Assembly: GCA_023135905.1 (NCBI GenBank)
Contig: JAGLSE010000101.1
Location: 1-38,817, forward strand
DNA: 38,817 bases
Source: Candidatus Omnitrophota bacterium
GTDB lineage: Bacteria > Omnitrophota > Gorgyraeia > Duberdicusellales > 4484-171
Direction: 5' to 3'
Shown: in pieces, positions 2,254 through 38,567 of the stretch
Numbering within the stretch: the stretch's first letter is position 1
Layout: each line of letters begins with the position of its first letter
The notes under the pieces: generated by a model
Database searches by the model: none
Told to the model about the DNA's origin: nothing
Seen by the model: the letters and a program-made list of their open reading frames with translations, nothing else
Position numbers and translations under genes: made by a program

Positions 2254-3627
2254 GTGAGAGACTTTACAAAAGGTAGTATACCAAACCAATTATTTAGGTT
2301 TGCTTTACCTATAATTGCGGGAGATATTTTACAAGCACTGTATCTTGTTATTGATGCTATATGGGTGGGCCGGCTTGTAGGTCATCAGGCTTTAGCTGCA
2401 ATTTCGGCAACATTTCCGATATTTTTTTTCTTTATGGCATTTATTATTGGGTTAAGTGTAGCAACTAATATCCTTGTCGGTCAATCGTATGGGGCTAAAG
2501 ATAAAGAATTCTTATCCGAAGTTTTAAAAAACGCTTTTTTTGTAGTTTTATTTATATCAGGAATTATTTCGATATTAGCTATCATTTTCAGTTCAGATAT
2601 ACTTGAATTATTAAATACTCCAAAAAATATAAAATCTGATGCTGCGACTTATTTGGTAATTATTTCGGTAGGAATGGTTATAAAAGCTTTTTATAGCTGG
2701 TTTGCCGCAGTTTTACGAGGATTAGGCGATTCAAAGACTCCACTTTTGATATTTTTAATAACAGTAGTTATAAATATAATAATAACACCAATCCTTATTG
2801 TCGGTTTTGGACCATTTCCGAGGTTAGGCGTTGCCGGGTCAGCTTTGGGAACAGTTATTTCTTCTTTTATAGGATTATTTCTAGGGTATGTTCTATTGAT
2901 AAAGAAAAATCATTTTTTAAATTTGAGTAAATGGAAATTAAAATTGGATTATTTAATTGTAAAAAAAATAGTTAGTATTGCAACGCCGGTTTCATTCCAT
3001 ATTATGGTTCGATCTATTAGCTGGATAGCTATAATAGCACTTGTAAACAGATTTGGGGCTCATTTGACAGCGGCTTATGGAATAGGTTCACGAGTCGATA
3101 TGTTTGTCTTTTTGCCAGCACTTTCTATTTGTATAGCTACTTCTTCGATGACAGCACAAAATGTTGGAGCAAAAAAATTTAAACGAGTCTCTCAGATTCT
3201 AATTTGGGCAATAGGTTTTTCTTTTAGTTATTCACTGATATTATTTATGTTAGTCAATATGTTCCCATATCATATTGCGAAAATGTTTAGCAGTAATTTA
3301 ATAGTAATAAACAGTACTGTAGAATATTTAAGTATAATAAGTTTAACTTATTTTTTATTTGCCTTTGTATTATCAGTACAAGGAATAATTACTGGAGTAG
3401 GAGATACTCATTATCTTATGGGGTTTACAGTCATATCTATGCTAGTAGTTAGGATACCATTAGCTTATTTTTTAGGCGGACATACTCAGCTTAAGGAAAA
3501 TGGGATTTGGATAGCTATTCTTTTTAGTGTTTTGGTAGCTTTAATTTTAAATTTTGGGTATTATCTTTCAGGTAGATGGAAACGAAGAATAGTTATTCAT
3601 GATTTTTCATGTATAGAGAATATTTAA
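2254..3627 (+). CDS. MATE family Na+/H+-coupled multidrug exporter
   Basis: This integral membrane antiporter exports cationic drugs or metabolites in exchange for Na+ or H+. The 457-aa length and about twelve hydrophobic segments fit the family, and the N-terminal sequence (NQLFRFALPIIAGDILQALY, then DAIWVGRLVG) and GLGDSKTPLLIF in the first half are characteristic of NorM/DinF-type MatE proteins. The start is GTG with AAAAGGA about ten bases upstream. It is a single-gene unit, possibly controlled by the short leader frame upstream. The substrate cannot be predicted from sequence. Confidence 0.9.
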   Translation: MRDFTKGSIPNQLFRFALPIIAGDILQALYLVIDAIWVGRLVGHQALAAISATFPIFFFFMAFIIGLSVATNILVGQSYGAKDKEFLSEVLKNAFFVVLFISGIISILAIIFSSDILELLNTPKNIKSDAATYLVIISVGMVIKAFYSWFAAVLRGLGDSKTPLLIFLITVVINIIITPILIVGFGPFPRLGVAGSALGTVISSFIGLFLGYVLLIKKNHFLNLSKWKLKLDYLIVKKIVSIATPVSFHIMVRSISWIAIIALVNRFGAHLTAAYGIGSRVDMFVFLPALSICIATSSMTAQNVGAKKFKRVSQILIWAIGFSFSYSLILFMLVNMFPYHIAKMFSSNLIVINSTVEYLSIISLTYFLFAFVLSVQGIITGVGDTHYLMGFTVISMLVVRIPLAYFLGGHTQLKENGIWIAILFSVLVALILNFGYYLSGRWKRRIVIHDFSCIENI

Positions 3628-6408: not shown

Positions 6409-6915
6409 ATAATTATTTAAATTCTATCAATATATTTATCATTAATTATTTTACACAGATATAGGGATAAGACAATCATAAAAAACAAGATAGAAAAAAT
6501 TGGTTTAATGGTGATTGGTTCAATAGTTTCAGCCAGAGGCTGATCAGCCTTCGGCTGAAATAGGAGATTGGTTAAATGGGTTAAAAGAGAGAGAAGAAGA
6601 TAAAAACGTATTGCGTAAAAAAAATAAGAGAAAAAATAAAAATATCGTAGGGTACGGGCATGCCCGTACAGTAAATAAAGACAAGACAAATAGATTAATT
6701 TACAAAATCATGTTTTTTATAAGACAATTTCAGTATAATATGGAATGATAAATACCGTAGACAGTGCTTGTTTTTGTCCGAGACAGAGCCTTTATGTCAT
6801 ATGTTTATCATATATTTTGCTAACGCAGTATGTTATATGATTGGTTTAAAGAAAAGAAAAATATAGAAAAGAGACTGAAGACCATTTGCAATTGATTATA
6901 GGCCTATATTGTTTT
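6409..6915. other. Intergenic region with stem-loops and an 18-bp palindrome
   Basis: A low-complexity frame on the minus strand here lacks family features and I do not call it a gene. Two adjacent stem-loops share the same arms, TCAGCC/GGCTGA (6529-6543 and 6544-6558). GTACGGGCATGCCCGTAC at 6652-6669 is a perfect 18-bp palindrome, GC-rich in an AT-rich setting. These resemble dispersed extragenic palindromes. The promoter of the ispH-nth unit should also lie here but I cannot place it. Confidence 0.5.
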
Positions 6916-7082
6916 AATCAATGAGACTTAGATTTTACGGAGAAAAATCTGTAGTCGAATTGATCCTGAGCAAGTAAAACTAGTCGAAGGATCTTGAGTT
7001 TAATTCCCCGCAGTTTACTGCGGAAAAGTTATTTAGGGGAAACCTTTGTTACCCCGTAGCTCTTGCTGCGGGGTAGTTGATT
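6916..7082. repeat. Structured dispersed repeat, copy A (intact)
   Basis: This 167-bp non-coding unit has a second copy at 23216-23608. It begins AATCAA and ends TTGATT, short terminal inverted repeats. Inside are hairpins AGATTTT/AAAATCT (about 6930-6950), GATCCT/AGGATC (about 6962-6992), CCGCAG-TTTA-CTGCGG (7008-7023) and the GC-rich hairpin beginning ACCCCG near 7050 and ending CGGGGT near 7074. About 90% of the left 131 bases match copy B, and the CCGC(A/G)G hairpin changes by a compensatory pair. This is the gap upstream of tatA. Confidence 0.75.
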
Positions 7083-9097: not shown

Positions 9098-9171
9098 AAT
9101 CTTTACATATTCAGAAAAATTATGTTGATGAAAACATCCATTTATCGTTTATTTAATCCTTTTTGAAATAT

Positions 9172-9287
9172 CTAAGTCATTGATTTTATCCCCTGCACTA
9201 AATATCGGGTAAACTTTCTTTGAAAGTTGACCCGAACTCAGGGTGTTTTCCTGCCTGCCGGCAGGCAGGAATTCGAGCTATAGGTTT
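9172..9287. repeat. Direct repeat, copy 1 (carries a palindrome insertion)
   Basis: This copy aligns with 9407-9502 with four substitutions over 96 bases and no gap other than 20 extra bases at 9250-9269. Both copies contain a hairpin, GGGTAAACTTTC/GAAAGTTGACCC, with one mismatched pair. The whole gap 9098-9652 has no credible gene; a hairpin with 9-bp perfect arms (CTCAAAAAT/ATTTTTGAG, 9344-9368) lies between the copies. Confidence 0.85.
9250..9269. repeat. 20-bp perfect GC-rich palindrome inserted in a direct repeat
   Basis: CCTGCCTGCCGGCAGGCAGG equals its own reverse complement. Copy 2 of the surrounding repeat reads straight through (GTGTTTTAATTCGAG), so the palindrome is either a precise insertion in copy 1 or a precise loss from copy 2. 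No target duplication is seen. Confidence 0.85.
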
Positions 9288-9406
9288 ACAGCCGTGCATT
9301 TTCTCGAAGAGAAAATTCCCCGGACTGTTAACACTGGGACCTGCTCAAAAATGTGAAAGATTTTTGAGTTATACAATGGTTCAAGTACAGATTTTATTCT
9401 AAAAAC

Positions 9407-9502
9407 CTAAGTCATTGATTTTACCCCCTGCGCTAAATATCGGGTAAACTTTCTTTGAAAGTTGACCCGAACTCCGGGTGTTTTAATTCGAGCTACAGGT
9501 TT
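9407..9502. repeat. Direct repeat, copy 2 (uninterrupted)
   Basis: This is the 96-bp partner of 9172-9287. It also contains the hairpin ACCCG-aactc-CGGGT, which is one pair stronger than in copy 1. It lies upstream of the single-domain receiver gene. No promoter is evident within it. Confidence 0.85.
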
Positions 9503-21632: not shown

Positions 21633-22247
21633 ATGAGCGGCATTTACGATTCATTAAATAATGTAGAAAAAGAAAAATTGAAAAGAGGTGAATTTATTGA
21701 GAAATCTAATACCGGTGATGATATAAAAAAGTCATTAGTTGAAATAAAGGGTTCAAATAGAAAAAAAATAAATTTGATACCAATTATGATATTTTCATTG
21801 CTTTTTGTTATTCTAATCATTGTTAATATTATATTTTATAATCAGCAGAAACAGAATGATTCAAATATAAATCAAGCATTCTTGAAATTTCAAGAAATAG
21901 AAAATAGTATTAATGAAACTAATCAACAAGTTTCCATAATCTCGAATAATTTTAGTAATATAGAGAGTAATTTGGAAAGTGTAAAAACAAATTTAGACAA
22001 TGTTGGACGTATCGTTGATGTTTCAAGGTTAACATTAGTAAAGTTTGATTCAAGAATGTCATATTTGGAAAGAGATAACGCAAATAGAAAAATTGCTATT
22101 GATGATATAACAAAAAGAGGAGACCAGTTATTAAAAAAATATTCAGAATTGAGAGTTAACCTGGAAAAATTTAAATATCTTTTACGTAAATCAGAAGAAG
22201 TTACGTTAGAACCAATAATAGTAACAGGTGAGATGAAAGTAAATTAA
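21633..22247 (+). CDS. Single-pass membrane protein with periplasmic coiled coil, unknown function
   Basis: I do not recognise a named family over the whole protein. Residues 1-19 (MSGIYDSLNNVEKEK) resemble the N-terminal motif of GspB/ExeB-like proteins and of the tyrosine kinase in this locus. A membrane helix follows (about residues 50-68, LIPIMIFSLLFVILIIVNII), then about 110 residues of heptad-rich, Asn/Ser-rich coiled coil and a short tail. Bases 21856-22083 of this gene, which cover the coiled coil, are copied at 23351-23578. The gene starts after GTGAGGTG at 21621-21628 and lies between dgkA and a nucleotidyltransferase gene, suggesting a role in assembly of the polysaccharide machinery. 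Confidence 0.75.
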   Translation: MSGIYDSLNNVEKEKLKRGEFIEKSNTGDDIKKSLVEIKGSNRKKINLIPIMIFSLLFVILIIVNIIFYNQQKQNDSNINQAFLKFQEIENSINETNQQVSIISNNFSNIESNLESVKTNLDNVGRIVDVSRLTLVKFDSRMSYLERDNANRKIAIDDITKRGDQLLKKYSELRVNLEKFKYLLRKSEEVTLEPIIVTGEMKVN

Positions 22248-23056: not shown

Positions 23057-23215
23057 TTTTGAGTTTTATATTTTTTTGAAGGAATGAAATGATTTTTTGT
23101 GTTAAAGGATATTATCATTTAGAATGAAACAATTCTTTTGCCTAATAAGGTCCGCTGCAAAAAAAAATAGCAATAAGTTTAAGTTTTTTTTTGATATTTG
23201 AATTTATTAAAGGTT

Positions 23216-23608
23216 AATCAATGAGACGTAGATTTTCCGAAGAAAAATCTGTAGTCGAATTGATCCTGAGCGAGTAAAACGAGTCGAAGGCTCTCGGGCT
23301 TAATTCCCCGCGGTATACCGCGGAAAAGATATTTAGGGGAAACCTTCTATATGATTCAAATATAAATCAATCATTAGTGAAATTTCAAGAAATAGAAAAT
23401 AGTATTAATGAAACTAATCAACAAGTTTCCATAATCTCGAATAATTTTAGTAACATAGAGAGTAATTTGGAAAGTGTAAAAACAAATTTAGACAATGTTG
23501 GACGTATCGTTGGTGTTTCAAGGTTAACATTAGTAAAGTTTGATTCAAGAATGTCATATTTGGAAAGAGATAACGCAACCCCGTAGCTTGCTGAGGGGGG
23601 AGTTGATT
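23216..23608. repeat. Structured dispersed repeat, copy B, split by a gene-fragment insertion
   Basis: This copy begins AATCAA and ends TTGATT like copy A (6916-7082). Removing 23351-23578 leaves 165 bases, against 167 in copy A. The hairpin at 23308-23323, CCGCGG-TATA-CCGCGG, is a perfect palindrome and differs from copy A by an A-T to G-C compensatory pair. The insertion lies between the GGGGAAACCTT segment and the final GC-rich hairpin. The gap 23057-23681 otherwise has no gene. Confidence 0.8.
23351..23578 (+). pseudogene. Duplicated internal fragment of the coiled-coil gene 21633-22247
   Basis: These 228 bases match 21856-22083 with five substitutions and no indel (about 98% identity). 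The fragment has neither the start, the membrane helix nor the end of the parent gene. It can be read from ATG 23377 for about 69 codons, but no ribosome binding site suits it, so I treat it as a gene fragment rather than a gene. Its ends lie inside repeat copy B. Confidence 0.85.
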
Positions 23609-36488: not shown

Positions 36489-36692
36489 GTGTTACCTATC
36501 TATTGTACTCTAAACACACAAGTGTCCGCCCCTACAAAATTATCGTTATCGTCTATTATAAAACGCGTTAAATTATTAACAACAAAAAATTACATTGATG
36601 GCCTAAAAAATCATAATTGGCAACCATTCAACAAACGTCTTTGGGAACGTTCCTTCCCTGACCATATAATTCGCAACGACAAATCATTGTAA
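36489..36692 (+). pseudogene. C-terminal remnant of an IS200-like/REP-associated (RAYT) Y1 transposase
   Basis: RAYT enzymes are single-strand transposases linked to dispersed palindromic repeats. The frame contains LSSIIKRVKLLTTKNYIDGL and NKRLWERSFPDHIIRNDKSL, matching the C-terminal end of Y1 transposases (W.R.F..HIIR...). The catalytic HUH motif and the family's usual continuation after DKSL are both missing, so only a fragment of about 60 residues is left. It lies between gspD and the group II intron. The ends of the fragment are approximate. Confidence 0.7.
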
Positions 36693-36823: not shown

Positions 36824-38486
36824 GTGCGACAATTATAATTGCCGGTCGGAAAAAATAGTTGACGTTATACACTGATGCTTGGTGAGACAATCACTATTCT
36901 GGTAGTAATACCAGGAAATACAGTATCAGAAGTCAGCAGAGGTCATAGTAGTCCCGCCATGGCGGGATGAAGGACTGAACTTAAATTTAAGGAATAAGGA
37001 ATTCAAGTTGTGAGTAAGATTCGAACCGCAGATAAGAAAGCTGAAATGCTTGAAGCAATGGTCAAAGAAATAGACGGAATCTATGAGGAAGACTATATGT
37101 GTGGAGAATCTGCATTGACGAGAGAAGAACCTATCCCTGAGTTTTCAACGCACATCGAGCAAATGGTTGAGAGAGAGAATATGCAAAAGGCATATCAAAG
37201 AGTAATGCGGAACAAAGGAACAGCAGGCATTGATAAGATGCAGGTAAGTGATTTAAAGCCGTATCTTGATAAGCATTGGACACGAATCAAATAGGAATTG
37301 TTGAAAGGAGACTATCAACCGCAACCAGTAAGAGTTGTATATATCCCAAAAGTAAATGGAGGAAAAAGACAGCTTGGCATTCCGACGGTGGTTGATAGAT
37401 TGATTCAACAAGCCTTAAACCAGGTGTTAAGTTCGATATTTGATGCAGAGTTTTCAGAATCTAGTTATGGGTTCAGGGCAGGCAAGAATGTACAAAAGGC
37501 AATCAAGCAGGCGCAAGAATACCAGGCAGAAGGAAGACGATGGGTTGTTGATATTGACTTGGCACAATTCTTTGATGAAGTCAATCAGGACAGATTAATG
37601 TCTCGGGTATCTAGGAGAATAAAAGACTGGAAGATTGTAAGTCTTATTCGAAGATACTTAAGGACTGGAGTTATGATTGACGGAGTTCAAACACTGAGGA
37701 TGAAAGGAACTCCTCAAGGAAGCCCACTTTCGCCGTTATTGTCTAATATTGTTTTGGATGAATTAGACAAAGAGTTGGAAAGACGAATGCTCAAATTTTG
37801 CCGGTATGCAGATGACTGTAATATTTATGTCAGAAGCAAGAAGGCTGGAGACCGAGTTATGAATTCGTTGAGGGGTTTTATTGAGGATAAACTCAAGCTT
37901 AAGGTGAATGAAAAGAAGAGTGTTGTGAGCCGTCCTTGGAAACAAACGTTTCTTGGATATTCATTTACATCAAATACGAAATCTAAAATACGAGTTCCAA
38001 AAGAAACTGTTAAAAGATTGCGTGTGAAGCTGAAGCGACTTTTTCGCGTAGGACGCGAGAGAAATCTTGGGAGATTTATAATAGATTATCTTGTTCCTGT
38101 TTTGCGAGGATGGATAAGTTATTTTAAACTTGCAGAAGTGAAGAAGTTTGCTGAGGAGTTGGATGAATGGATACGACGCCGATTGAGATTGATAATATGG
38201 CGTCAATGGAAACGTCGATGGCGAAGACTCAAAGGCTTGATAAAAGCTGGTCTTACAAAGGAAAATGCAGCTAGGTCGGCATTTAATGGTCGAGGTTCGT
38301 GGTGGAATGCAGGTGCTAGGCATATGAATTTTGCTTTTCGAAAGAAATATTTTGAGAAGTTAGGATTAATCTCATTGCTTGATAGACTAAAGAAACTTAG
38401 AGAACAATAAATTTAAGAACCGCCGTGTACGGAACCGTACGCACGGTGGTGTGGGAGGACGGCGGAAGTGATTCCGCCTCCTACCC
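36824..38486 (+). mobile_element. Group II intron carrying a reverse transcriptase ORF
   Basis: The 5' end reads GTGCGAC (36824-36830). Domain V is at 38417-38450: a 34-nt hairpin with lower stem ACCGCCGTG/CACGGTGGT, a two-base CG bulge, upper stem TACG/CGTA and loop GAAC. A domain VI-like hairpin (GGCGGAA/TTCCGCC) follows, with the 3' end near CTACCC (about 38483-38486). A 16-bp palindrome (36952-36967) is located in the ORF-proximal part. The exact ends are uncertain by a few bases, and the intron's lineage class cannot be fixed. Confidence 0.8.
37010..38410 (+). pseudogene. ltrA: Group II intron reverse transcriptase/maturase, broken by one in-frame TAG
   Basis: The GTG at 37010 opens a frame that is interrupted only by TAG at 37292-37294 (between TRIK and ELLKGDYQPQPV), then continues in the same frame to 38410. 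RT motifs are otherwise intact: IPKVNGGKRQLGIPTVVDR, YGFRAGKN, VVDIDLAQFFDEV, GTPQGSPLSPLL and the catalytic YADD. The maturase domain ends WWNAGARHMNFAFRKKYFEKLG. No HNH endonuclease domain follows. The stop should abolish full-length protein, unless readthrough occurs; the rest shows no decay, so the change is recent or tolerated. Confidence 0.88.
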
Positions 38487-38567
38487 AATTTAAACCAGTT
38501 GAGGATTTCTGATTAGTTTTAAAAGTATTTTTAATAATTATTTATGCATAATGGGAATGTGGTATTT

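Follow-up and report, generated by a model that had tools for sequence, protein, structure and literature searches.

A coding-gene fragment copied into a REP/BIME-like palindromic repeat close to its source

The present analysis describes a fragment of a coding gene that has been copied into the middle of a palindromic repeat, in a window (the whole stretch of DNA analysed, 38,817 nucleotides, contig C4) of a 1.66-Mb genome in 150 contigs (G000). Judged from the sequence, this templated insertion into a REP-like repeat appears to be real, well bounded and partly datable. The non-coding copy (23351-23578, plus strand) matches a source segment at 21856-22083, plus strand, inside a gene for a small membrane protein of 204 aa with a coiled coil (21633-22247, plus strand), and the two are identical at 223 of 228 positions, with no indels and five substitutions (gene/copy: 21876 G/T, 21881 C/A, 21882 T/G, 21959 T/C and 22018 A/G). 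A BLAST search with the fragment against the whole genome (E 3e-109) returned these two segments only. The host, repeat copy B, is split into a left part with three hairpin regions and a GTAG motif (23214-23350, plus strand) and a right part comprising the terminal hairpin CCCCGTAGC..GCTGAGGGG and then the AGTTGATT end (23579-23608, plus strand). The copied fragment abuts the terminal hairpin at its 5' foot.

Both bounds are fixed by 38 other full-length copies, in which the uninterrupted sequence at the insertion point is CTTCGATA^CCCCGTAG and in all of which CTTCGATA runs straight into (C)CCCCGTAGC, with slight variation in the number of Cs. The consensus junction reads CTTCGATA^CCCC, and the 228th matched base, an A, is assignable to the element. 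Because the consensus carries an A before the Cs that is missing from copy B once 228 nt are taken out, the net insert is 227 bp, with one A common to either junction and therefore ambiguous at each; this refines the 228 bp of the preliminary description and accounts for its count of 165 versus 167 bases for the element. Beyond that single A there was neither target loss nor target duplication at the insertion. The segment is absent from the 38 full-length copies, so that repeats of this family do not normally contain it, and the left and right parts of copy B are both closest to the same copy, c12, which identifies them as parts of one element and not of unrelated ones; the earlier claims that coding DNA lies in the middle of the repeat and that the flanks rejoin as one repeat are borne out on both counts. 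Among the copies in this genome, copy B is the sole one with a non-repeat insert, and the whole-genome search located the combination of repeat and insert at this one place. There was no meaningful open reading frame and no terminator-like site in the copied fragment; promoter-like matches numbered 10 against 4.4 in shuffles, which in AT-rich DNA was not counted as evidence. We saw no indication that the fragment has any function, or that the repeat moves pieces of genes about the genome.

The repeat itself has a palindromic consensus of 168 nt and about 45–50 copies in the genome. With up to three mismatches allowed, the left-core pattern matched 43 times, the middle pattern 46 times and the right-end pattern 32 times, and the reversed control gave no match; the window holds one further, uninterrupted copy, copy A, at 6913-7082, plus strand. 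Every other copy with the left core runs through to the right end without a break, has an internal deletion (those on C129 and at C73:29155 have no right end) or stops at a contig edge. In the 38-copy alignment the hairpin AGATTTTTC..GAAAAATCT is followed by GTAG, as is the terminal hairpin, and the consensus ends in terminal inverted repeats (AATCAA...TTGATT); inspection of the 38 copies by eye found no shared flanking direct repeat that would indicate a target-site duplication. Related sequence occurs in 23 of the 37 genomes of the bacterial family, shorter units (positions ~1-51 and 84-168) stand alone in related genera, and isolated terminal hairpins of the family were found on C145 and C72, and on C232 of the congeneric genome, G001. 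Structured RNA of a known kind was considered and set aside, the Rfam matches being group II intron parts only. Under the criteria for GTAG-type REPs and BIMEs (PMC2817692, PMC3733652) the repeat conforms in its copy number, palindromes and GTAG motif and in the presence of RAYT genes in the genome; we use the qualified name REP/BIME-like because paired inverted REPs around a RAYT gene were not clearly seen. Three open-frame Y1_Tnp (RAYT-type) genes scored over the cut-off, one on C111 and two on C23. One of those on C23 has two left units of the repeat family on one side only, and that on C111 has none within its locus. On C23 (locus L104) the RAYT genes are the minus-strand ORFs 740-1303 and 2883-3422, and at least the second has in-frame REP-like palindromes inside its coding sequence.

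Several further observations concern the repeat and its relatives. The first 94 nt occur at 95% identity in a genome of another genus (G021:C143:141-234, L140), while the same repeat in the congeneric genome reaches only ~76–81%, which may reflect horizontal transfer of the repeat module. Within the window, 9166-9249 and 9401-9484 form a palindromic mosaic of a related repeat type, a pair of 84 nt at 94% identity, beside an incomplete, inverted copy of the first hairpin unit. A copy in the sister genome (L119/L138), with 50 nt inserted in the loop of its first hairpin, was at first taken as a second capture and proved to be a nested repeat: the 50 nt are a small palindromic dispersed sequence that matches at 46 of 50 positions upstream of rph in G001 and has related sequence on C148 of G000. 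This copy lies at L138 ~1470-1560, which corresponds to G001 C125:~2050-2110. A repeat copy in G020 with CCTGCCTGCCGGCAGGCAGG inside it was likewise rejected as another capture, being again a nested palindrome.

Comparison with G001, the sole congeneric genome compared, allows the event to be placed in time. The gene order there is the same (DAGK-like, coiled-coil gene, nucleotidyltransferase, epimerase), and the spacer of ~100 bp between nucleotidyltransferase and epimerase (locus L087) has neither repeat nor insert, so that both were most simply gained on the window's lineage. The element of copy B departs from the consensus at 13 of 167 positions, including six substitutions private to it, and at most two to three of the five differences in the insert fall on the copy side, two of 228 being used for the test. 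By Fisher's test the contrast between 13/167 and 2/228 gives p 0.0006, where the age of the element is measured against the consensus and may include differences already present on arrival, and for private changes alone (6/167 against 2/228) p is 0.075, which is not significant. These data favour, and do not settle conclusively, an order in which the repeat came first and the insert later, and the repeat would accordingly be the older of the two at this site.

The same genome polarizes three of the five differences between gene and copy. Where the live gene reads GCA TTC TTG and the copy TCA TTA GTG, the ortholog of the source gene in G001 (55% protein identity) has TCA CTT GTG. The gene has therefore changed since copying at 21876 and 21882, and the copy at 22018; 21881 and 21959 were assigned to neither side. 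The copy keeps the older base at two sites, one of them within an adjacent AG/CT pair, from which it follows that the copying was faithful, and this counts against the behaviour of a mutagenic or diversity-generating retroelement. Error-prone copying by a reverse transcriptase was rejected since at least two of the five changes fall by polarity in the live gene, and a template/variable repeat pair of a diversity-generating retroelement was rejected since the differences are not adenine-specific and at least two are ordinary substitutions in the gene. The adjacent AG to CT change in the live gene turns TTAGTGAAATTTCAAGAA, retained in this imperfect form by the copy at 23374-23391, into the perfect 18-bp palindrome TTCTTGAAATTTCAAGAA (21879-21896, plus strand); by polarity against G001 the change that perfected the palindrome appears to have occurred in the gene and not in the copy. 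The palindrome, in the coiled-coil region, would have arisen after copying, likely by quasi-palindrome correction, and amino acids were altered. Arm correction is described as a recognised signature of template switching at quasi-palindromes in PMC7202029 and PMC8604942.

These patterns are probably best explained by local templated insertion at the foot of a hairpin in a resident repeat, through a switch of template to the nearby gene during replication or repair. A REP/BIME-like repeat would have settled in the nucleotidyltransferase-epimerase spacer after the split from the sister species. A strand extended from the left would stall where it enters the terminal hairpin. DNA synthesis or break repair at the 5' foot of this hairpin may later have switched to the coiled-coil gene and copied 227 bp of it faithfully, without a change of orientation, before returning to the very nucleotide that it had left; the outcome would be a non-coding fossil of the gene inside the repeat. 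The source lies ~1.3 kb away in the same orientation, and a random source would fall within 1.5 kb on either side with p ~0.002 in a genome of 1.66 Mb. The perfecting of the quasi-palindrome in the source gene would be an independent hairpin-type event and as such appears to count for template switching. Against this, the junction microhomology is 1 nt on each side, which is weak for classical microhomology-mediated switching, and the exact return requires two switches; the position at the foot of a hairpin could also be fortuitous in an element made up largely of hairpins. The preliminary description allowed for a single-strand or template-switch mechanism at the hairpin: template switching or break repair is our best guess for the agent, which we infer, and the junction signature expected of a RAYT enzyme was not seen.

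A second case bears on whether such copying recurs. A 204-bp piece of a RAYT gene on C23 (L104:3107-3310) is repeated in direct orientation at L104:2678-2881 with eight substitutions and no indel (96%); the pair is 429 bp apart and stands two bases from a unit of the repeat family to which copy B belongs. This fragment has palindromes at both ends, GGGCGACCGGTTGGTCGCCC and GGGCGAAC..GTTCGCCCCTAC, so that recombination from REP to REP is a good alternative for it. Across the 830 kb surveyed, roughly half of the genome, direct local duplications with a length of ≥100 bp and an identity of ≥95% that are not repeat-repeat pairs numbered just two, the fragment at 23351-23578 and the RAYT piece, and both touch the same repeat family; the enrichment is suggestive only, since many of the surveyed contigs were chosen for holding the repeat. 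The data suggest, and do not prove, that gene-fragment copying recurs at this family. We put forward only tentatively the broader idea that hairpin-rich REP-like repeats are recurrent acceptors of faithful local copies of coding DNA, in a bacterial form of transduplication, with the structure of the repeat and not chance driving the copying.

An alternative explanation could be strand transfer by a RAYT (Y1) enzyme that cut the single-stranded repeat and joined a strand derived from the gene, the element actively capturing coding DNA. GTAG motifs beside hairpins and the Y1_Tnp genes, one with repeat units adjoining, would suit this, and in the second case a piece of a RAYT gene lies between palindromes and beside GTAG, which agrees with REP-bounded mobilisation. 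The characterised TnpAREP enzymes, however, cleave CT (or CA) close to a GTAG-tagged hairpin (PMC8266576). In copy B the nearest such CT lies 2–3 nt before the start of the insert, neither source end (CAGA^ATG and CGCA^AAT) contains a CT, and the fragment has no terminal palindromes and makes a composite present in single copy. We consider RAYT strand transfer unlikely, and less likely than local templated insertion. What stands of the earlier proposal that coding DNA was captured by the element is a same-orientation copy ~1.3 kb from its source within one repeat; active acquisition or mobilisation is not supported, given the single copy, an insert that looks younger, and junctions with neither RAYT-type cleavage at CT nor useful microhomology.

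It is less probable again that end joining at a break in the repeat picked up a random fragment, the nearness of the source then being coincidence or the result of local degradation. The nearly blunt junctions, with 1 nt in common and no target loss, would fit, but the low chance (p ~0.002) of a random origin within 1.5 kb speaks against it and the second local case at L104 points to a local source too. It is more doubtful still that the insertion was RNA-mediated, a fragment of the mRNA having been reverse transcribed, for example by the reverse transcriptase of a group II intron, and the cDNA joined into the repeat. A decayed RAYT-like (Y1 transposase) fragment (36504-36689, plus strand; tblastn with the genome's own RAYT proteins, E 6e-7) and a group II intron with reverse transcriptase/maturase (36894-38489, plus strand), 14 kb off, are both real, as previously noted, and the copy is sense-oriented and possibly within one transcription unit with the gene. 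The copy has, on the other hand, no target duplication, tail or intron boundary, and it is not error-rich, two of the five differences being gene-derived and one copy-derived; in this analysis no evidence tied either the remnant or the intron reverse transcriptase to the copying event. Independent insertion of two half-repeats around a pre-existing duplication of the gene fragment is very improbable, since the halves, both nearest c12, meet as in the consensus to within one base, and each end of the fragment would have had to receive its own insertion at precisely that point, even though isolated terminal hairpins of the family do exist. Misassembly of a metagenome-type genome in many contigs is hardly credible for a copy that differs from its source at five sites, partly by older bases common to G001, and shares 1 nt per junction, too little for a k-mer joining error.

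The interrupted repeat, its empty sequence, a nearby source and an outgroup together provide a dated, base-resolved record of small repeats gaining foreign sequence, and the interest of the case lies in this record at the level of the base and in its possible recurrence. Should the link to hairpins prove general among genomes, it would reveal one way in which coding fragments come to be copied into intergenic DNA, where they could supply material for new small genes or regulators, and it would make models of template switching and of RAYT activity separable through junction statistics.

In the literature searched, of which coverage was partial and the evidence limited, there was no matching report of gene-fragment capture by bacterial REP or MITE elements. 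The acquisition of gene fragments by transposable elements, or transduplication, is common in plants and is represented in C. elegans by Turmoil-1 (PMC2572040). Our case resembles such Pack-type capture in that a fragment of host coding sequence lies inside a small repeat element, but it is a single locus, with no sign that element and fragment moved together, and its source is 1.3 kb off. The terminal inverted repeats in the consensus recall a MITE, whereas a target-site duplication was not seen in this repeat. ERIC/RU-type enterobacterial repeats and bacterial MITEs are small extragenic palindromic elements, some with variant internal structure; ours, likened to them by description, is similar in size and differs in that no target-site duplication is visible. 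GTAG-superfamily REP/BIME elements with their RAYTs (REPtrons) are alike in being high-copy, palindromic and mostly modular, with GTAG beside hairpins and Y1/RAYT genes in the genome, but the unit here is 168 nt long, composite and bounded by short terminal inverted repeats, and its internal gene fragment is not a described feature of REPs or BIMEs in the literature compared. Quasi-palindrome template-switch events involve a few to tens of bases. Such mutations in E. coli and yeast share with our case the copying of a nearby template at a hairpin-forming sequence, and the live gene carries the arm-correcting signature, but here 227 bp were copied from 1.5 kb off with a return to the same base. 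The type of event is a variant of known processes and not a new mobile system.
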